Made by a program: the position numbers and the translations under genes
Shown: piece by piece, positions 5,831 through 20,874 of the stretch
Layout: each line of letters opens with the position of its first letter
Numbering within the stretch: the first letter of the stretch is position 1
DNA from: a virus
Length of the DNA stretch: 20,874 bases
Virus record (IMG/VR): IMGVR_UViG_3300010938_000015
Location: 27,824 to 48,697 of that record
Reading direction: 5' to 3' (one strand)
The notes under the pieces: generated by a model
What the model saw: only the letters and a program-made list of their open reading frames with translations
Database searches by the model: none
Told to the model about the DNA's origin: nothing

Positions 5831-6451
5831 TTAGATACCAGATGGAACTATTGTTTGCGGTGTTTTTGGTGCTTGCAATGGAACTATTGTTTGCGGTACT
5901 TTTGGTATTTGCGGTACTTTTGGTGTTGAATACCAATCAAATGTTAAATCGATAGTAACTTCAGATATTGTATTCTCTGCATATGACAATTGAGTATGAT
6001 CGACTTTTGATGGCCATGAACCGTGTAATTTAATTTTAAATATTGGAAATCCAGTATGTTCACTTTCTAATTCAAATTCAGAAGTTGATTTATACTCATC
6101 AGCAAATCCAACACTGTTCATATTTTCGCCAGACCCATGGACTTTACTAACCCATTGATCTATTAATGACTTCATAGTGCTAGTACCACTAGAATAAGCT
6201 TCATAGAAAGTAACAGATGCTTGTGTAAATTCAATATTGCCTGCAAATTTATATTTAATACTAGATCCAAGAGCTTCTATAATTTGTGATTGTATTGTTG
6301 GGAATGTAAAAGATTTTGCATACCAAGCACCAGAAACTAATCCATTGGTGCCATCTATAGGGCCTAATTTTAAAATGCGCCATCTATGCGCTCTACCAGT
6401 GGCTATAGTATTTATTTCACCACCAGACCCATTTATATTAAATCCAGGCAT
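5831..6451 (-). CDS. Second tail tube-like protein with a Pro/Gln/Lys-rich repeat tail
   Basis: The 206-aa protein is a paralogue of the next-upstream tube protein. Both begin MPGFN, then carry a 'T.R.HRW' segment (TGRAHRWRILKLGP versus ETRRKHRWLFTTLGP), a KFAG element, and near the end a 'GSWP/GAWP-K-VD' motif followed by EVT..L..D. Tube proteins of this gp19-like fold stack as hexameric rings inside the sheath. Residues 177-206 form a repeat tail (PKVPQ, PQTIVP twice) absent from the paralogue. The start follows the previous stop by one base (TAA-T-ATG) and lacks a clear ribosome binding site, so translation is probably coupled. It may form a minor ring, a tube initiator or a baseplate-proximal cap. 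Confidence 0.72.
   Translation of the reverse strand: MPGFNINGSGGEINTIATGRAHRWRILKLGPIDGTNGLVSGAWYAKSFTFPTIQSQIIEALGSSIKYKFAGNIEFTQASVTFYEAYSSGTSTMKSLIDQWVSKVHGSGENMNSVGFADEYKSTSEFELESEHTGFPIFKIKLHGSWPSKVDHTQLSYAENTISEVTIDLTFDWYSTPKVPQIPKVPQTIVPLQAPKTPQTIVPSGI
5834..5923 (-). repeat. In-frame short repeats coding the Pro-rich tail of the second tube protein
   Basis: ATGGAACTATTGTTTGCGGT occurs at 5842-5861 and again at 5878-5897 (plus strand), a 36-base period equal to 12 codons. GCGGTACTTTTGGT is also repeated back to back next to it. All units are multiples of three, so length changes would keep the frame. They code for PQTIVP and PKVPQ units. Confidence 0.75.
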
Positions 6452-6452
6452 A

Positions 6453-6965
6453 TTATAATATACGTTGTGCTCTATCTATCGATAATGTAGCAGTAACTTC
6501 TTGTATTTCATTATTACTATAATCCAAATCTCCCCAATCAACTTCTTTTGGCCAAGCGCCAAACAATGACCATGATTCATTTGCTACACCAGCACCATTT
6601 GTCATTGTTAAGCCAGCATCTGCTTTATAAGTACCTGGAACACCAACATTAGCCGTTGGCACATTAACTACTGTATTAAACCAATCATAAATAACTTTAG
6701 ATATATTTGGATCTTGCTCGCCATCGTACCAAGTCATGTTGATATCTTCCCAAGTATACTTACCAGCAAACTTGGCTTGCTCTTCATCATGATGCATTTC
6801 TGCTACTTGTACAGTAGCCTTTGGTCTTGCTGCTGACTTTAAAACCAGTAATGCAGTTCTACCTAATGGTCCCAATGTCGTAAACAACCAACGATGTTTA
6901 CGACGAGTCTCAATAGTATTACTAACTGCGTTTTGGTTTGGTGCTCCTAGATTAAAACCTGGCAT
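6453..6965 (-). CDS. Tail tube protein (T4 gp19-like)
   Basis: The 170-aa protein sits directly after the sheath gene, the usual place for the tube gene in contractile tails. It has the expected size for gp19-type tubes (about 160-170 aa). Features are MPGFNLG at the N-terminus, KHRWLFTTLGPLG (about 24-36), KFAGKYTWEDINMTWYDGEQDPN (central), and a C-terminal GAWPKEVDWGDLDYSNNEIQEVTATLSIDRA. The end of that run, 'N.I.EVT.TL..D.A', is a common ending in this family. GGAG seven bases before ATG gives a good ribosome binding site. It should form the inner tube around which the sheath contracts. A second, longer paralogue follows immediately. Confidence 0.85.
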   Translation of the reverse strand: MPGFNLGAPNQNAVSNTIETRRKHRWLFTTLGPLGRTALLVLKSAARPKATVQVAEMHHDEEQAKFAGKYTWEDINMTWYDGEQDPNISKVIYDWFNTVVNVPTANVGVPGTYKADAGLTMTNGAGVANESWSLFGAWPKEVDWGDLDYSNNEIQEVTATLSIDRAQRIL

Positions 6966-13790: not shown

Positions 13791-14169
13791 GCTTTAACTT
13801 TAATTTTGTGTATAATTCTTTTAAAAATAATTTAACAGCTCTAAGTCCTTTTAACTTTTTATAATTATCAACATCTAAAACGACAGCAACAGCAACAGGA
13901 ACTTCTATTGTACAGTCATCAACATCATAAATAGTTACCGATACTACTTGCGAATTTTTAAATAATTTATTTCTTCCAAATTGTATATCAATTCTGGAAT
14001 ACAAATATTGCATACTATCAGTAGCATCTATAATATCTGTTTCCAGCTTAAAATCTGCTACATAATTAAGAATTTCTTTAGCTCTTTTATTTAAAAATCT
14101 TATTGATTTAGAGCGACTTTTAGAAATTAAACCTTCAGAAATAATCTTATGTAGCATTTTACTAATCAT
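13780..14169 (-). CDS. Hypothetical protein (129 aa) downstream of the fractured neck gene
   Basis: I do not recognise this protein. The basic N-terminal third (KMLHKIISEGLISKSRSKSIRFLNKRAKEIL) is helical. A beta-rich centre (MQYLYSRIDIQFGRNKL, VVSVTIYDVDDCTIEVPVAVAVVLDVDN) is followed by a Lys/Leu-rich C-terminal helix. There is no membrane segment; the VPVAVAVVL stretch is too short and is flanked by acids. The start overlaps the upstream stop (ATGA). Small alpha/beta proteins at this place in neck clusters are often head-closure or tail-terminator subunits, but I cannot support that here by motif. Confidence 0.6.
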   Translation of the reverse strand: MISKMLHKIISEGLISKSRSKSIRFLNKRAKEILNYVADFKLETDIIDATDSMQYLYSRIDIQFGRNKLFKNSQVVSVTIYDVDDCTIEVPVAVAVVLDVDNYKKLKGLRAVKLFLKELYTKLKLKHGN

Positions 14170-14897
14170 TTAACGAAAATCCCCATAGGTTCACCATAAA
14201 GGAGTAAATCCTGCTCTAATTTATCGTATTCTGCTTTACCTTCTGCAACTAATGCATCTCCATCTAAACCTATTGTGCCGCCATCAGGAGCTGGCATGTT
14301 ACCAATCTTTCTTCTTACATTTCCAACAGCTATCTTAGTTTTAGCTAAAATAGCTCTAAAAGCCAATTCTCTAACGTGCGGATTTTTAAATTCAGTAACA
14401 GAAGGGCTATAACGAACTATAACAGGGAAAACACCCTTTGGTGTTGGGAATAGCCTAATCTTATTTTCACCATATGAAAATTCCCATCTGCCTTCTGTTC
14501 CTAATATTCTCTGACTAAATTTTCTATATGCTTGTAATAAATGATAATCTGTTAAAAGGTTCTGAATACCGGTGACGTTACCTATGTTTGCGCCAAAACC
14601 AACTGGTAATCCAAAACGTCTTCTTAAAGTATCATATTCTATAGAATGACTTGGTATTTTTCCAGCGTATTTTTCACAAGCATTGCGCCAATTTTCGTCA
14701 TGGGTTGATGATCCTGATAGAATATGTGCTACTTCATCACAGATAACATCATTGAAATTATCCATATTAATATTTAACGAAGAGATATAAATAATCTTGT
14801 TACTTATGTCTGTAATTGCATTATGATACTTTAATGGCAGTATTTCTAACTTTATATACGCACTTGTAGTATCTTCCAACTTTTGTTGTGTATGCAT
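14166..14897 (-). CDS. C-terminal half of a fractured neck-like structural protein, fused behind a SprT-like remnant
   Basis: The 243-aa frame has two unlike parts. Residues about 30-84 resemble the SprT/Spartan zinc-protease core: KIIYIS strand, VICDEVAHIL (HExxH with the first His replaced by Asp54; Glu55 and His58 kept), THDENW with His66 in the place of the third ligand, and ACEKYAGKIP. Residues from about 85 or 93 to 243 look like the rear part of a phage neck/connector-type protein (NLLTDYHLLQAYRKF, GTEGRWEF...IRLFPTPKGVFPVIVRYSP, PAPDGGTIGLDGDAL, GEPMG). This part has no N-terminal half of its own; that half is at 16574-16254. The ATG overlaps the endonuclease 3' end by 77 nt, with GGA five bases before it. 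The two-part reading is inference from sequence character. Confidence 0.62.
   Translation of the reverse strand: MHTQQKLEDTTSAYIKLEILPLKYHNAITDISNKIIYISSLNINMDNFNDVICDEVAHILSGSSTHDENWRNACEKYAGKIPSHSIEYDTLRRRFGLPVGFGANIGNVTGIQNLLTDYHLLQAYRKFSQRILGTEGRWEFSYGENKIRLFPTPKGVFPVIVRYSPSVTEFKNPHVRELAFRAILAKTKIAVGNVRRKIGNMPAPDGGTIGLDGDALVAEGKAEYDKLEQDLLLYGEPMGIFVK
14646..14810 (-). other. SprT-like zinc metalloprotease remnant domain
   Basis: The segment covers residues 30-84 of the 243-aa frame. A strand leads into DEVAH, then THDENW about eight residues on, then C..YAGK. This follows the SprT-like spacing 'HE..H......H(G)..W...C...G'. The first metal-ligand His is Asp, and the usual N-terminal helices of the family are missing, so it looks like a decayed or truncated copy. 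Confidence 0.5.
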
Positions 14898-15813
14898 AAT
14901 GATCCAATGATTGCAAAATTTCGGTTTTATTTTTGAACCACATAGTTAAGCACTTACCATATTTTAATTTACCATTTGCGCATTCAACATTATCAAAATT
15001 AAATCCAGATTTAAACAAATCAAACCCTGCTTTTCTTTCTATATCTGTAATACCACTAAACTTAGCCCCAGCTTTTTTAGCTTGTCTAGAAGCATATAGC
15101 CTTTTATCAAGTGGTATCATTTTGTCATTTGGCTTTACTTCAATCCATCTATCACCATTTTTAGACTGAACAGAAAAGTCAATCATATAAGTTCTAAATT
15201 TCCCTGTAAATCTATCAATATAAGGAACAGTTATTAATTTATAATCCCAATTATCAACACTAGCATCAAAGTCTAATAACATAGCATAACATAGTTCATG
15301 AAGAGATTTGAAAACATATTCTCTATTTGTTTTTACTGATTTATATTTAAATCGTGATCGTGACCCAATTGCTTTCTTAAAATTTTCTGGGTTAGATCCT
15401 GGATGCCAATAGCCAGTTTTTTCAAAATATTTTAATTTCATAGATATAGCTTGATTTTTCTTATCTTTTTTTATTTTATATAATTGTACGTATTTTCTGA
15501 CAGAAGAGTAGTGAACATTATTTTCGTTAGCTATAACCTTCGTATCTTTATTATTTATTATGTATTCTTTTATTAAAAAATCTTTTGATAGAAAGTTTGT
15601 TTTATTGAATTTAGGATTTCTTAGTGATGCAAAATCTTTAGTATTATGTATTGATGTGTCAACACCTGCTGCTCTTAATTTTCGTTTTATTGTTGATTCA
15701 GAACATCCAAATTCTTTTGAACATTCAGACAACGAATGTGTTTTATGAAACTCTTTTAATCTAGCCATATCTATATCTATATAATTAGAAGCAAATTTAT
15801 TAGGCTTTATCAT
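14821..15813 (-). CDS. PD-(D/E)XK homing endonuclease with helix-turn-helix repeats
   Basis: The frame is open from a TTG at 15849, but ATG at 15813 (MIKPNKFASNY) is the better start and gives 330 aa. Two helix-turn-helix modules lie at about 16-52 (LSECSKEFGCSESTIKRKLRAAGV) and about 74-118 (FLSKDFLIKEYIINNKDTKV...). Such modules are frequent DNA-recognition units of homing endonucleases. A nuclease core follows with Glu173 (SLHELCYAML), Asp212 (YMIDFSV) and Glu225-x-Lys227 (RWIEVKP), the Vsr/TnsA-like PD-(D/E)XK layout. The C-terminus is basic and aromatic (GRYYKCVYKVRN). The gene begins about 40 nt after an intein-like frame and overlaps the C-terminal half of the split neck gene, the classic 'fractured gene' site. 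It probably cuts uninterrupted alleles of this locus. Confidence 0.82.
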   Translation of the reverse strand: MIKPNKFASNYIDIDMARLKEFHKTHSLSECSKEFGCSESTIKRKLRAAGVDTSIHNTKDFASLRNPKFNKTNFLSKDFLIKEYIINNKDTKVIANENNVHYSSVRKYVQLYKIKKDKKNQAISMKLKYFEKTGYWHPGSNPENFKKAIGSRSRFKYKSVKTNREYVFKSLHELCYAMLLDFDASVDNWDYKLITVPYIDRFTGKFRTYMIDFSVQSKNGDRWIEVKPNDKMIPLDKRLYASRQAKKAGAKFSGITDIERKAGFDLFKSGFNFDNVECANGKLKYGKCLTMWFKNKTEILQSLDHYAYTTKVGRYYKCVYKVRNTAIKVS

Positions 15814-15851
15814 ATAAATATATTTGAATAAAATTTTACAGGGGTGCAAAA

Positions 15852-16253
15852 TTAATGCACCAAAACTGGCAAACCATCATGTGAAGCATATAAGCAGTGA
15901 GCACCGTTTGCATAAATTGAATATGTATCACCTTTACCAAATTGCTCAATTTTAATAATTTTGGTAGATGTACCATCTTTTTTAAATAAATTCATATTTT
16001 GTTTTAATTCTGATACTTCATACCATCCATTTAGCATGTCAGTTATTTCATCCGATTTAACGGGATGGTTTGGCGTTGATATAAACCAACCATCTTCATA
16101 TATAACTTTATATAATTGTTGCTGCTCTTTATGATGTGTAATTGATAATTTTTTAGGCCCAAATGGGGTAATCGCCCTAAAATGTTTTTCCCAACTATCA
16201 ACAGATATCATTTCATTATCTTCACGTAATATTTTTACACCTGAGCCGAAGCA
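15852..16253 (-). mobile_element. Intein-like Hint domain lacking its C-terminal Asn
   Basis: Blocks A, B, F and G can all be seen in 133 residues, with the penultimate His present. The stop codon TAA replaces the codon for the terminal Asn. There is no endonuclease inside the domain; one follows as a separate gene. Confidence 0.72.
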
Positions 16254-16574
16254 AAATAAAAATGATTCAGCACTAAATATATCATCAATTCTTGATGTAA
16301 CTGGGTCCCATGCAACTTCTCTAACCCAGTACGCATCTTGTGGTAAATCATAAGTATGTTGTAACGGATTTGTGTAGAAAAATGCATATCTTTCCTCATA
16401 CGGAAAATGATGGGCCACGAAATCGCCCATACTTCTTAATATATGTTCCCATTGAGGCTCCTGCATTTCAATTAAAACATTTGGATGCCCTAATTCAGAT
16501 ATGGCATGAAGCTTAAGAGGGTTTGAATCAACACGAAGAACAACTGGCAATTGTGATGGTCCTAAAATGGCCAT
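15852..16574 (-). CDS. N-terminal half of a neck-like structural protein fused to an intein-like Hint domain
   Basis: Residues 1-107 are the extein part (MAILGPSQLPVVLRVDS, ending DPVTSRIDDIFSAESFLF). They lack the rear half of the protein, which appears at 14645-14166. Residues 108-240 form a mini-intein-sized (133 aa) Hint domain: Cys108 opens block A (CFGSGVKILREDNEMISV), block B is STPNHPV (Thr167, His170), block F is DTYSIYANGAHCLYA, and block G is LPVLVH. The frame ends TAA straight after His240, where the terminal Asn should be, and no +1 Cys/Ser/Thr follows. N-terminal thioester cleavage is conceivable; normal cis-splicing is not. The ATG has GGAG five bases upstream, inside the end of the previous ORF, and the two overlap by 13 nt. 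Confidence 0.75.
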   Translation of the reverse strand: MAILGPSQLPVVLRVDSNPLKLHAISELGHPNVLIEMQEPQWEHILRSMGDFVAHHFPYEERYAFFYTNPLQHTYDLPQDAYWVREVAWDPVTSRIDDIFSAESFLFCFGSGVKILREDNEMISVDSWEKHFRAITPFGPKKLSITHHKEQQQLYKVIYEDGWFISTPNHPVKSDEITDMLNGWYEVSELKQNMNLFKKDGTSTKIIKIEQFGKGDTYSIYANGAHCLYASHDGLPVLVH

Positions 16575-16753
16575 TTTTTCTCCATAAGGCTTTTAGTTAT
16601 CTTCTTAACTTTTAGTTTTGAGCCAGCCAATATAAATTTGTTTCCAGCGGGAGAACAATCACATTCATTAGATATATTTATAGTACTTCTCTTAAGATCA
16701 ATATAATTATATCTTAACCAATCTAAACTATTTAATTTTTCATAATTTATCAT
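16562..16753 (-). CDS. Short helix-turn-helix ORF related to homing endonuclease DNA-binding modules
   Basis: The 63-aa product is mostly one module: LNSLDWLRYNYIDLKRSTINISNECDCSPAGNKF (about 7-40) and then LKVKKI. It aligns by eye with the second module of the endonuclease at 14821-15813: 'L.S.D[WF]L...YI....(S/D)T..I..E......S...K......KIKK'. No nuclease domain follows. It starts four bases after the previous stop and overlaps the split neck gene, for which it supplies the GGAG ribosome binding site. It could be the remnant of an older homing gene, or a small DNA-binding regulator of the insertion. The resemblance is moderate. Confidence 0.5.
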   Translation of the reverse strand: MINYEKLNSLDWLRYNYIDLKRSTINISNECDCSPAGNKFILAGSKLKVKKITKSLMEKKWPF

Positions 16754-18094: not shown

Positions 18095-18880
18095 TCAAAC
18101 ATCTACTGAATATGGATAGTCACATAAAAATGGGCATACAGACATTAATTTACTAGAAACCTTTTCTATTGATGTATCAAACTTTCTTATATTTTTTAAT
18201 ATAGTGTCAAAATCTACATTATTTTCCCTCAAATTTAATGGTTTATATGGTTCTATATCAATAGACATAAAATAATCATTAAATTTCGTACCATCGCCTG
18301 TAACATTATTTGAAAATTCAACCCACAAATTTGGTTTATTATATGCTTGTGACGCAACTAAACCATGTAATGAACTAGATATAGTCATCTCACATGAATT
18401 GATTTCGTCAATAATTTTTTCTATATTATCAAATAAATTAATAATTTTAACACCATCAATATGTTTATATCTAGAATTTGCTATTTCGAAGTCTATATAA
18501 TGCGGAATAACTCCTAATTTATACATCACATCAGTAGTTGGTTTATAAATTTTTGGTAAAATGATGGCAGGGTCGCCATAGACTTCTGGGCATTCCCAGC
18601 CGCATTCAATTATTCTTGTCCTTGATATCGGTCCTCTAACAGCATTTATTTTATAAGGTTTAGGAATTTTATCATTCCTCCAGGCAATTCCACAACCCCA
18701 AATTATACTATGTGTAATATCGGCATCCAGCATACTACCAGTCACCATGAATGTTATAACATCACTTGGTTGTTCAATATATCTAACATCTTTTCCTGTT
18801 AATTTATTCAATATATATGGAGTTAAAGCATCACCAAAGTTCTCGCTGAAATGCCAATATGCATTGATATAGTCTGTCAT
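18095..18880 (-). CDS. Polysaccharide pyruvyl transferase family protein
   Basis: The 261-aa protein shows the family hallmarks in order: NFGDALTPYIL (14-24), IIWGCGIAW (59-67), VRGPISR (81-87), YGDPAIILP (101-109), and near the C-terminal third SSSLHGLVASQAYNKP (168-183). In that last motif the Ser-Leu-His-Gly is the conserved signature. Members add ketal-linked pyruvate to sugars of exopolysaccharides, or are related glycosyltransferase-like enzymes. The length is slightly short compared with many bacterial members, but the core seems complete. It ends the four-gene glycan cassette, has no clear ribosome binding site, and follows the LicD gene by 29 nt. Its target could be a virion glycan or the host surface. 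Confidence 0.88.
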   Translation of the reverse strand: MTDYINAYWHFSENFGDALTPYILNKLTGKDVRYIEQPSDVITFMVTGSMLDADITHSIIWGCGIAWRNDKIPKPYKINAVRGPISRTRIIECGWECPEVYGDPAIILPKIYKPTTDVMYKLGVIPHYIDFEIANSRYKHIDGVKIINLFDNIEKIIDEINSCEMTISSSLHGLVASQAYNKPNLWVEFSNNVTGDGTKFNDYFMSIDIEPYKPLNLRENNVDFDTILKNIRKFDTSIEKVSSKLMSVCPFLCDYPYSVDV

Positions 18881-18909
18881 TATTTAAACTTATGTTTAAA
18901 AGTTGGTCT

Positions 18910-19719
18910 TTATAATGGCTTAAATTTTGGTTGAATAGGTTTTGCTTGTGATGACGTTTTAATAGTAGGCTTTAAAGAACTTCTTAAATTTGGAGTAGGT
19001 CTGACTAATGGGTTTGCTTTCTTCCAATTTTGTGGTTTAACTCTCTTAGTTTGTGGCTTAGGTTTTGAAAATTCATGGCTTTTAACAACTATATTACCAT
19101 TTTCAACAGATAAATCATTTGGCTTCCTGTTCTTATCTGGAGTTTTCCAATTATCACCATATAAGTATACTAAAAAAGATTCAATATCCGATGGTGTATT
19201 GAAAATTTCACCTCTCCATTCTATTTTATTAAAAGTATCAAACATTGTTGCTGGAAAGACTACTTTAGATCTATTTTTATCATAATAATAAAAATCATCA
19301 ATTTTATCAAATATCCATCCTTCAATTTTTTCACCATCTTTAATAGTTACAAAGTCAGAATATGGTGCATTAGATTGTGGATCGATTGGTTTTTGTGGAT
19401 CACCCTCATCAACAACATAGAATCCAAGTTTGCGTAACCTTATCCTAGCTTCTGCTAACTTCGATCTATCATCAGAGAATAATGCTAGATCAACATCATC
19501 ATCCCAAGGAATTATATCTTTATCTCTATAGACACCAAGCATAGTTCCGTGTGATAAACAATATTTAATACCAAGTTCTTCGAACAAATCGCATATAATC
19601 TTGGTATTTTTAAATAAAATATCCCTATCAATAGGTCTGGTTCTTCCACCATGCTGGCCGCGCTCCCACAATGGGACATCAGCACCATACACATTTTTAT
19701 TTGGGTTTAAAGTATGCAT
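18910..19719 (-). CDS. LicD-family transferase with Lys/Pro-rich tail
   Basis: The N-terminal 120 residues hold the LicD/fukutin nucleotidyltransferase-like core: NTKIICDLFEELGIKYCLSHGTMLGVYRDKDIIPWDDDVDLALF, where GTMLG (58-62) and the PWDDDVD metal-binding cluster (71-77) are diagnostic. LicD proteins transfer phosphocholine or similar phospho-groups to surface glycans. A middle domain (to about 200) includes YGDNWKTPDKNRKP, a typical LicD end. Residues 218-269 are a basic, Pro-rich low-complexity tail (SKPKPQTKRVKPQNWKK to the end FKPL), which is unusual for the family. The start overlaps the methyltransferase stop (TAATG). It could decorate a sugar built by the aminotransferase and methyltransferase upstream. 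Confidence 0.85.
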   Translation of the reverse strand: MHTLNPNKNVYGADVPLWERGQHGGRTRPIDRDILFKNTKIICDLFEELGIKYCLSHGTMLGVYRDKDIIPWDDDVDLALFSDDRSKLAEARIRLRKLGFYVVDEGDPQKPIDPQSNAPYSDFVTIKDGEKIEGWIFDKIDDFYYYDKNRSKVVFPATMFDTFNKIEWRGEIFNTPSDIESFLVYLYGDNWKTPDKNRKPNDLSVENGNIVVKSHEFSKPKPQTKRVKPQNWKKANPLVRPTPNLRSSLKPTIKTSSQAKPIQPKFKPL

Positions 19720-20330
19720 TATTTCTTTCGCGCTATTATTCTCATTAATGTTGGATTTTCGTCCTTATAAGGTGAAAGATTTTTATCTTCAACAAAATAC
19801 AGTATATCAAAATCCTTTAATTTACTCTTAAATATATTTGGATCTATAAATCTTCTAAAATGGTCACTAATATAACTATGTTCAGCTACTTTAGTGCCTA
19901 CACCATATATTGAGTCCCTAATAGTTCTAGCTTCTACACAAAATAAGTCATCACTAGCTAAATTATCAGTAGCCCACTGAAGAACTTTATCTTCATCATT
20001 TTCATCAATAGAGTGAATAGTAAATCTGGAATAAATGATATCAATTCTATTAAATTTAGGCAAGTTTGTAAAATCACCAATATTTATAACATAATTTCTT
20101 CCGATTTCAGGGGTGCAAGCCAAATCAACACCATAAATCATATGCCCCTTTGATGCAAAGTACTTTAAATCTCTACCATTACCGCACCCAAGTTCAATCA
20201 TGTTGCAAAATTTTTTAGAATTTGGTATGAAATTTTCTACAAATTCAGCAAATAAAGATGGCTTTTCCTCTGAGAATTCTTTATAAAAGTTAGACCAGTA
20301 TTCAACATCTTTTTTATCTTCTTGCCACAT
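19719..20330 (-). CDS. Class I SAM-dependent methyltransferase
   Basis: The 203-aa protein has a Rossmann-type methyltransferase core: motif I IELGCGNGRD (45-54), the acidic end of strand 2 in YGVDLA (Asp69), a short 'INIGDFTNLP' segment (motif II region), and IDIIYSRFTIHSID (about 96-109, motif IV region). The C-terminus has a strand pair ending LMRIIARKK. Its place between a DegT-type aminotransferase and a LicD gene suggests methylation of a sugar, perhaps an amino sugar, instead of DNA or RNA. The start overlaps the aminotransferase by 17 nt, so the genes are translationally coupled. The substrate cannot be told from the sequence. Confidence 0.83.
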   Translation of the reverse strand: MWQEDKKDVEYWSNFYKEFSEEKPSLFAEFVENFIPNSKKFCNMIELGCGNGRDLKYFASKGHMIYGVDLACTPEIGRNYVINIGDFTNLPKFNRIDIIYSRFTIHSIDENDEDKVLQWATDNLASDDLFCVEARTIRDSIYGVGTKVAEHSYISDHFRRFIDPNIFKSKLKDFDILYFVEDKNLSPYKDENPTLMRIIARKK

Positions 20331-20874
20331 AATATGCCTTTATTGATTCACAGATATGCAAAATAGACTCTTGTGTTAAAGAAAATGAACTTGGAAGCCA
20401 CAACCCCATAGAACTATATTTAGTAGCAACTTCTGTGTCTAGCATAGTCTTATAAAAAGGTGTAAAACGTTCAAGATATGAATATACACCTTGGGTATGC
20501 AATGCTGGATATAATTTTCTAGTTTGAATATTATTTTCAGATAGATAGCTGATCAAATCATCCCTATCTTCTACAAAGATATCAATAAACCATGGTATAT
20601 TACCATAATCAAATTCCAAAAATTTGACTTCTTCAACATTTTTTAAATGCTGTTTATACTCATCATATAGCCATCTTTTAAATTCTATTCTTTGATTGAC
20701 TTTCTTTAATTGAGCAAGCCCAATAACAGCTTGCAAGTCTGTAAATTTACTATTAATACCAAAGTCAGTATGAATATCGGTGCCACCTGACAATCTACCA
20801 AAGTCTTTTAGTCTTTCAATCTTTTCATAAGTATCGATACTATTTGTAACAAGACATCCACCTTGACCAGTTGA
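20314..20874 (-). CDS. DegT/DnrJ/EryC1/StrS-family sugar aminotransferase, C-terminal part (cut by the window edge)
   Basis: The visible 186 residues begin STGQGGCLVTNSID, the segment just after the PLP-binding lysine in this family ('K....GEGG...T'), so the lysine itself lies outside the window. Then come ERLKDFGR, FGINSKFTDLQAVIGLAQLKKV (the 'G.N.R...LQAAIG..QL' element) and the 'R..LY.AL' region as IQTRKLYPALHTQGVY. The C-terminus has LPSSFSLTQESILHICESI, also typical. These enzymes transfer an amino group from glutamate to a keto-sugar nucleotide. The gene heads the glycan cassette in this window; further sugar genes may lie upstream. Confidence 0.9.
   Translation of the reverse strand, partial: STGQGGCLVTNSIDTYEKIERLKDFGRLSGGTDIHTDFGINSKFTDLQAVIGLAQLKKVNQRIEFKRWLYDEYKQHLKNVEEVKFLEFDYGNIPWFIDIFVEDRDDLISYLSENNIQTRKLYPALHTQGVYSYLERFTPFYKTMLDTEVATKYSSMGLWLPSSFSLTQESILHICESIKAYYVARR

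Follow-up and report, generated by a model that had tools for sequence, protein, structure and literature searches.

A 20,874-nucleotide stretch of viral DNA (positions 27,824 to 48,697 of IMG/VR record IMGVR_UViG_3300010938_000015; the window hereafter), which is part of the 88-kb virus record G000, carries a neck protein gene split into two reading frames, the first running on into a complete Hint domain and the second led by a SprT-like zinc-protease domain, with a homing-type endonuclease gene between them. In known inteins, release of the C-extein depends on cyclisation of the intein's final residue, an Asn or, in variants, Gln, Asp or Glu. Every copy of the present arrangement lacks this cyclising residue and has a protease domain in its stead, and the arrangement may represent an undescribed route for removing an insert from a protein, possibly with rejoining of the pieces. 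A sequence-only reading of the window had described a neck gene fractured by these three components, a description now borne out by profile and fold matches and by recurrence of the locus, which comprises:

16574-15852, minus strand: gene for the N-half and Hint domain.
16254..16574, minus strand: N-extein, residues 1-107 (MAILGPS...SAESFLF), T4 gp13-like neck/head-tail adaptor, 81% identical to intact L009/L003.
15855..16253, minus strand: complete Hint domain continuing the reading frame of the N-half, with Cys1, block B T60-x-N-H63 and last residue His133, no Asn.
15852..15854, minus strand: stop codon TAA where the intein C-terminal Asn would stand.
14821..15849, minus strand: homing-type endonuclease gene with two helix-turn-helix units and a PD-(D/E)xK domain (E..D..EVK); the ATG is probably at 15813.
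14897-14166, minus strand: gene for the SprT-like domain and C-half.
14589..14897, minus strand: SprT-like/minigluzincin domain (DEVAH-x7-H) and a linker with F-G-A as its last residues, in one frame with the C-half.
14166..14588, minus strand: C-extein, N108 to the protein end (NIGNVTGIQ...GIFVK), 77% identical to the C-part of intact L009.

About 60 intact relatives read through the break in a single frame (...FGAESFLF-N[IV]GN[IV][TS]GIQ...), which fixes it between F107 and N108. A profile of the intact protein aligns to the N-half from its position 1 up to 108-118 and to the C-half from positions 101-108 onward to the end, while the intact family matches the head-tail adaptor Ad2 of phrog_211 (22 of 28 members, best E-value 5.6e-11) and T4 gp13 (E-value 7.6e-4). 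Profile and alignment confirm the two halves as parts of one predicted T4 gp13-like neck protein. The frames that the sequence-only reading took for the front and rear of a single structural protein are indeed that, since intact homologues span the break and one profile matches both, rather than members of two families or separate genes in genomes without the insert. The alignment with uninterrupted homologues, which it had suggested for finding the insertion point, places the junction at ...ESFLF/N[IV]GN.... Its front boundary at 16574-16254 was exact (M1 to F107); the rear half, given as 14645-14166, is real but starts at 14588, since 14645-14589 is linker by alignment with the intact homologues. 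The break point falls in a stretch that is among the most conserved in the neck protein and is flanked by predicted helices, at residues 96-106 of the N-half and, with low confidence, at residues 108-114 of the C-half's own chain. The profile of the intact protein detected no second, intact neck copy in 13 fractured records.

The Hint family profile matches 8w20 (E-value 1e-6) and the bacterial intein-like domain (BIL) 2lwy, and a Foldseek search with the AlphaFold model of the window domain, whose predicted local distance difference test score exceeds 90 across most of its length, retrieved the gp41-1 intein (E-value 4e-9) and BIL2 (E-value 5e-9). Pairwise identity among 14 N-half Hint domains is 18-81% (mean 31%). 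All 14 keep the TxNH motif, with T and H invariant, and begin with Cys (11) or Ser (3), thus presenting the Cys/Ser1 and block B TxxH of class 1 inteins. The C-terminal Asn (Gln/Asp) followed by Cys/Ser/Thr at +1 that also defines this class is missing, and the first residue of the C-extein is Asn. Instead, every one of the domains terminates at the site of the block G His (occupied by His in 11, Lys in 2, Ser in 1 and Asn in none) with a stop codon at the position of the Asn, and the end ...PVLVH aligns with the VLVH ends of 8w20 and 2lwy. Readthrough or frameshifting that would restore His-Asn was considered and ruled out, as the stops vary (TAA, TAG and TGA all occur among the homologues examined) and the C-half is more than 1 kb away.

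The leader of the C-half belongs to a different fold. Its profile (A6) matches proabylysin (4jiu, E-value 5e-5) and selecase (4qhj, E-value 2e-4), and Foldseek with the AlphaFold model of the window leader again gave 4jiu (E-value 5e-4); as the domain is a zincin, the C-terminal part of a split intein was ruled out. The motif [HD]ExxH-(6-9)-H is kept in 16 of 16 C-halves, with E, H and H invariant, at a distance of 42-50 residues from HExxH to N108. The window motif is DEVAH..H, and the window sequence alone has no SprT Pfam match. The linker diverges except immediately before N108, where a hydrophobic residue (15/15) is followed by A/G/S (15/15) and again by A/G/S (13/15); the 15 loci of this count were retrieved by neck or endonuclease searches, and L166 and L176, whose search pattern required A/G at the last two places, were left out. 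At L005 (5740-6426, plus strand) the linker repeats the extein motif just before the extein (NVGNIAG/NVGNITG), possibly through a local duplication.

The endonuclease gene sits between the gene halves in the window and in most relatives. The window protein matches the TnsA-like PF08722 (E-value 6.9e-7) and HTH_28, and the catalytic motif is conserved in the family profile (A9). The gene is nevertheless inverted in L011, only part of it remains in L005, and in L180 (contig C160) the N-half-Hint gene is followed by a nuclease gene of another type, MTES_1575-like and encoding a Mom-like domain. Since Hint and protease persist where the endonuclease gene is turned round, exchanged or missing, these two look like the core of the element. 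The nuclease domain of 14821-15849 resembles phage head-completion/closure proteins (phrog_218, E-value 1.7e-12), and a nuclease fold thus appears common to a virion gene and the endonuclease gene. A 63-residue open reading frame at window positions 16562-16753 (minus strand), which precedes and overlaps the neck start, weakly matches phrog_8446 (E-value 0.012), a family also matched by the N-terminal part of the endonuclease, and is maybe a relic of another endonuclease.

The same design was found in 14 divergent N-halves and 16 C-halves. The sequence-only reading had correctly placed the whole Hint domain on the N-half and the SprT-like domain ahead of the C-half, but took as particular to this copy what is fixed in all of them. 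This recurrence, together with the profile and AlphaFold fold matches to solved Hint/intein and minigluzincin structures, shows that the arrangement is not due to chance. An occupied and an empty site can be compared directly: fractured L012 and intact L015 are colinear over 12 kb at approximately 79-81% DNA identity, interrupted by a clean insert of 1,564 bp, with homology ending at the last base of the F107 codon and resuming at the first base of N108. Between these two loci dN/dS, the ratio of nonsynonymous to synonymous substitution rates, is 0.013 and 0.016 for the exteins (approximate values, as dS is high), which indicates that both neck halves have stayed under strong purifying selection. 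Values of 0.12-0.19 for Hint and 0.15-0.31 for the protease domain suggest that purifying selection acts on these as well. In the neck tree, comprising 63 intact rows, 17 fractured rows and one row (L019) with an ordinary cis insert, the fractured state requires 11 changes by parsimony, at least 6 of them on well-supported branches, a pattern compatible with recurrent gains, recurrent losses or a mixture of the two. Fixed empty and occupied sites and a scattered occurrence, both seen here, are features of homing elements. The neck gene of L019 (1849 onward, plus strand) has a cis intein-like insert ending HN directly upstream of SFLF, at a distance of four codons from the point of fracture; this second type of element targets the same conserved motif.

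The two halves may not always adjoin. In G053, a bin of an archaeal metagenome-assembled genome (MAG), the N-half-Hint gene (L178/L180) and the SprT-C-half gene (L177) lie on different contigs, C160 and C118, which are probably viral and fall in the same MAG bin; no partner gene was found within 9 kb downstream of the N-half gene on C160 or within 4.4 kb upstream of the C-half gene on C118. Each of these two genes has as its neighbour an endonuclease gene that encodes a Mom-like acetyltransferase domain. A search of 50,697 phage records (isolated phages) gave no N-half match. Narrow Hint profiles found neck copies and ordinary cis Hint domains in portal genes and nothing else, the endonuclease profile one further fractured neck (L153) and distant nucleases, and a protease scan of 26 records necks only; other target genes may still exist beyond the reach of these searches.

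Taken together, these sequences suggest a homing-type mobile element inserted between codons 107 and 108 of the neck gene that two distinct enzymes would excise from the protein product. The sequences establish the architecture, its recurrence, the exactness of the insertion, the selection and the pattern of mobility; we infer a thioester, self-release of N108 and ligation. The conserved C1/S1 and TxxH suggest that Hint turns the F107-Cys1 bond into a thioester; the minigluzincin domain would then cut its own linker before N108 at the hydrophobic-small-small/N motif, yielding a free α-amine and so substituting for Asn cyclisation; and this amine, occupying the place of the missing Asn beside the terminal His, would attack the thioester to join F107 to N108 without a scar, producing the junction-spanning peptide IDDIFSAESFLFNIGNVTGIQNLLTDYHLLQAYR. 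The endonuclease would spread the element and be dispensable for processing. For type-A BILs splicing has been proposed to proceed through thioester formation, C-terminal release and attack by the freed amine (PMC4031507), and in Tetrahymena BIL2 the N-terminal partner becomes ligated to the amine of a lysine (PMC8616854). The parts for the first and last of the type-A steps are present here, with a protease in place of Asn. Ligation is the mechanism that we consider most likely, and we give it an even chance. Several points weigh against it. Asp replaces the first zinc His in 6 of 16 C-halves (the window and five relatives), the terminal His is missing from 3 of 14 Hint domains, and the evidence for self-cleavage consists of the linker motif and the tether length. 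Many Hint domains only cleave, and aminolysis of a thioester by an N-terminus other than Cys competes with hydrolysis. Type-A BILs themselves yield mostly cleavage products (PMC4031507).

The main rival is cleavage without ligation, a possible outcome though a less likely one, in which the thioester would be hydrolysed, the protease would trim the C-half, and chains ending at F107 and starting at N108 would fold as a nicked neck protein. The same conserved catalytic residues and exact boundaries would be expected, the junction falls between the two predicted helices, and type-B BILs cleave without splicing (PMC4031507). However, such a process leaves unexplained why Hint invariably ends at the block G position, usually with His, given that type-B BILs lack block G similarity (PMC4031507), and the break lies in one of the most conserved parts of the neck. 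Alternatively, and by inference only, the chains might retain their Hint and SprT-like domains, assemble non-covalently and carry the extra domains as decoration of the neck; this appears unlikely, since neither the conserved catalytic residues of both enzymes nor the hydrophobic-small-small/N motif in an otherwise diverging linker would then be accounted for. Decay of a former intein that lost its end, leaving a broken neck gene and relic domains, might be suspected from the Hint without Asn, the DExxH of the window and the partial endonuclease of L005, but is highly improbable in view of the same design in 14 divergent copies, an extein dN/dS of about 0.015 with purifying selection on both domains, and the want of an intact backup neck gene in 13 records. 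Of the outcomes offered by the sequence-only reading (two chains, rebuilding by an unknown reaction, or a broken protein), the last has thus become unlikely and the other two remain, with a specific reaction now proposed for the second.

If the halves are ligated, the splicing chemistry would be new, the locus would provide a new natural ligase in two parts that leaves no Cys/Ser/Thr scar, and a selfish element would have made two genes of an essential virion gene; if they are only cleaved, nature would still have reached a two-chain virion protein with exact ends in an unusual way. The most far-reaching reading, in which we have slightly less than even confidence, is that of a novel protein trans-splicing class: activation (Hint, with neither Asn nor +1 nucleophile) and amine release (zinc protease) would be divided between two enzymes located on separate chains, and the mobile element encoding them would even be able to leave the halves at separate genomic sites. 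We found no paper that links SprT or a metalloprotease to an intein in this way, although the sparse coverage of subscription literature means that priority is not proven.

Within the 88-kb record, sheath, tube, tape-measure and hub genes adjoin the fractured neck locus. Two tandem but distinct tail-tube genes (phrog_45 / phrog_4542) occupy window positions 5831-6451 and 6453-6965 (minus strand), and upstream of the virion genes, at 18095-20874 (minus strand), lie pyruvyl transferase-, LicD-like, methyltransferase- and sugar aminotransferase-like genes, assigned by eye except for the methyltransferase, which has a database match. The endonuclease and C-half genes overlap by 77 bases.

Both halves of the window neck map to a single member of the T4 gp13 / PHROG 211 Ad2 family, from which the window differs in encoding the neck as two chains. 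In sequence and fold the C-half leader comes closest to the minigluzincins (abylysin, jannalysin, selecase) and SprT/WLM proteases, small-fold proteins marked by HExxH plus a third His, but it differs in being fused to half a virion protein and in having Asp as first zinc ligand in 6 of 16 cases, the window among them. The element as a whole resembles the fractured genes but has neither their split-intein feature nor the end residues found in inteins and type-A BILs. Dassa et al. 2009 reportedly described such fractured genes, in which split inteins occur together with a free-standing homing endonuclease; they share with the window a conserved phage gene split into two open reading frames, an endonuclease gene between the halves and an intein-fold sequence at the break. 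In a split intein, however, the N-part lies on one half and blocks F and G on the other, whereas here the whole Hint domain is on the N-half, there is no IntC, Asn or Cys/Ser/Thr+1, and the C-half bears a zinc-protease domain; the endonuclease is TnsA-like PD-(D/E)xK rather than Vsr-like. Type-B BILs have no block G similarity, in contrast to the block G-like Hint end seen here. Type-A BILs and Tetrahymena BIL2 likewise combine a Hint fold lacking a nucleophilic +1 residue with a ligation proposed to occur when an amine attacks the N-terminal thioester (PMC4031507; PMC8616854). Type-A BILs nonetheless end His-Asn and free the amine by Asn cyclisation in cis, whereas the present Hint domains have the His in 11 of 14 cases and the Asn in none, and the amine would be brought by a second chain and freed by the protease.
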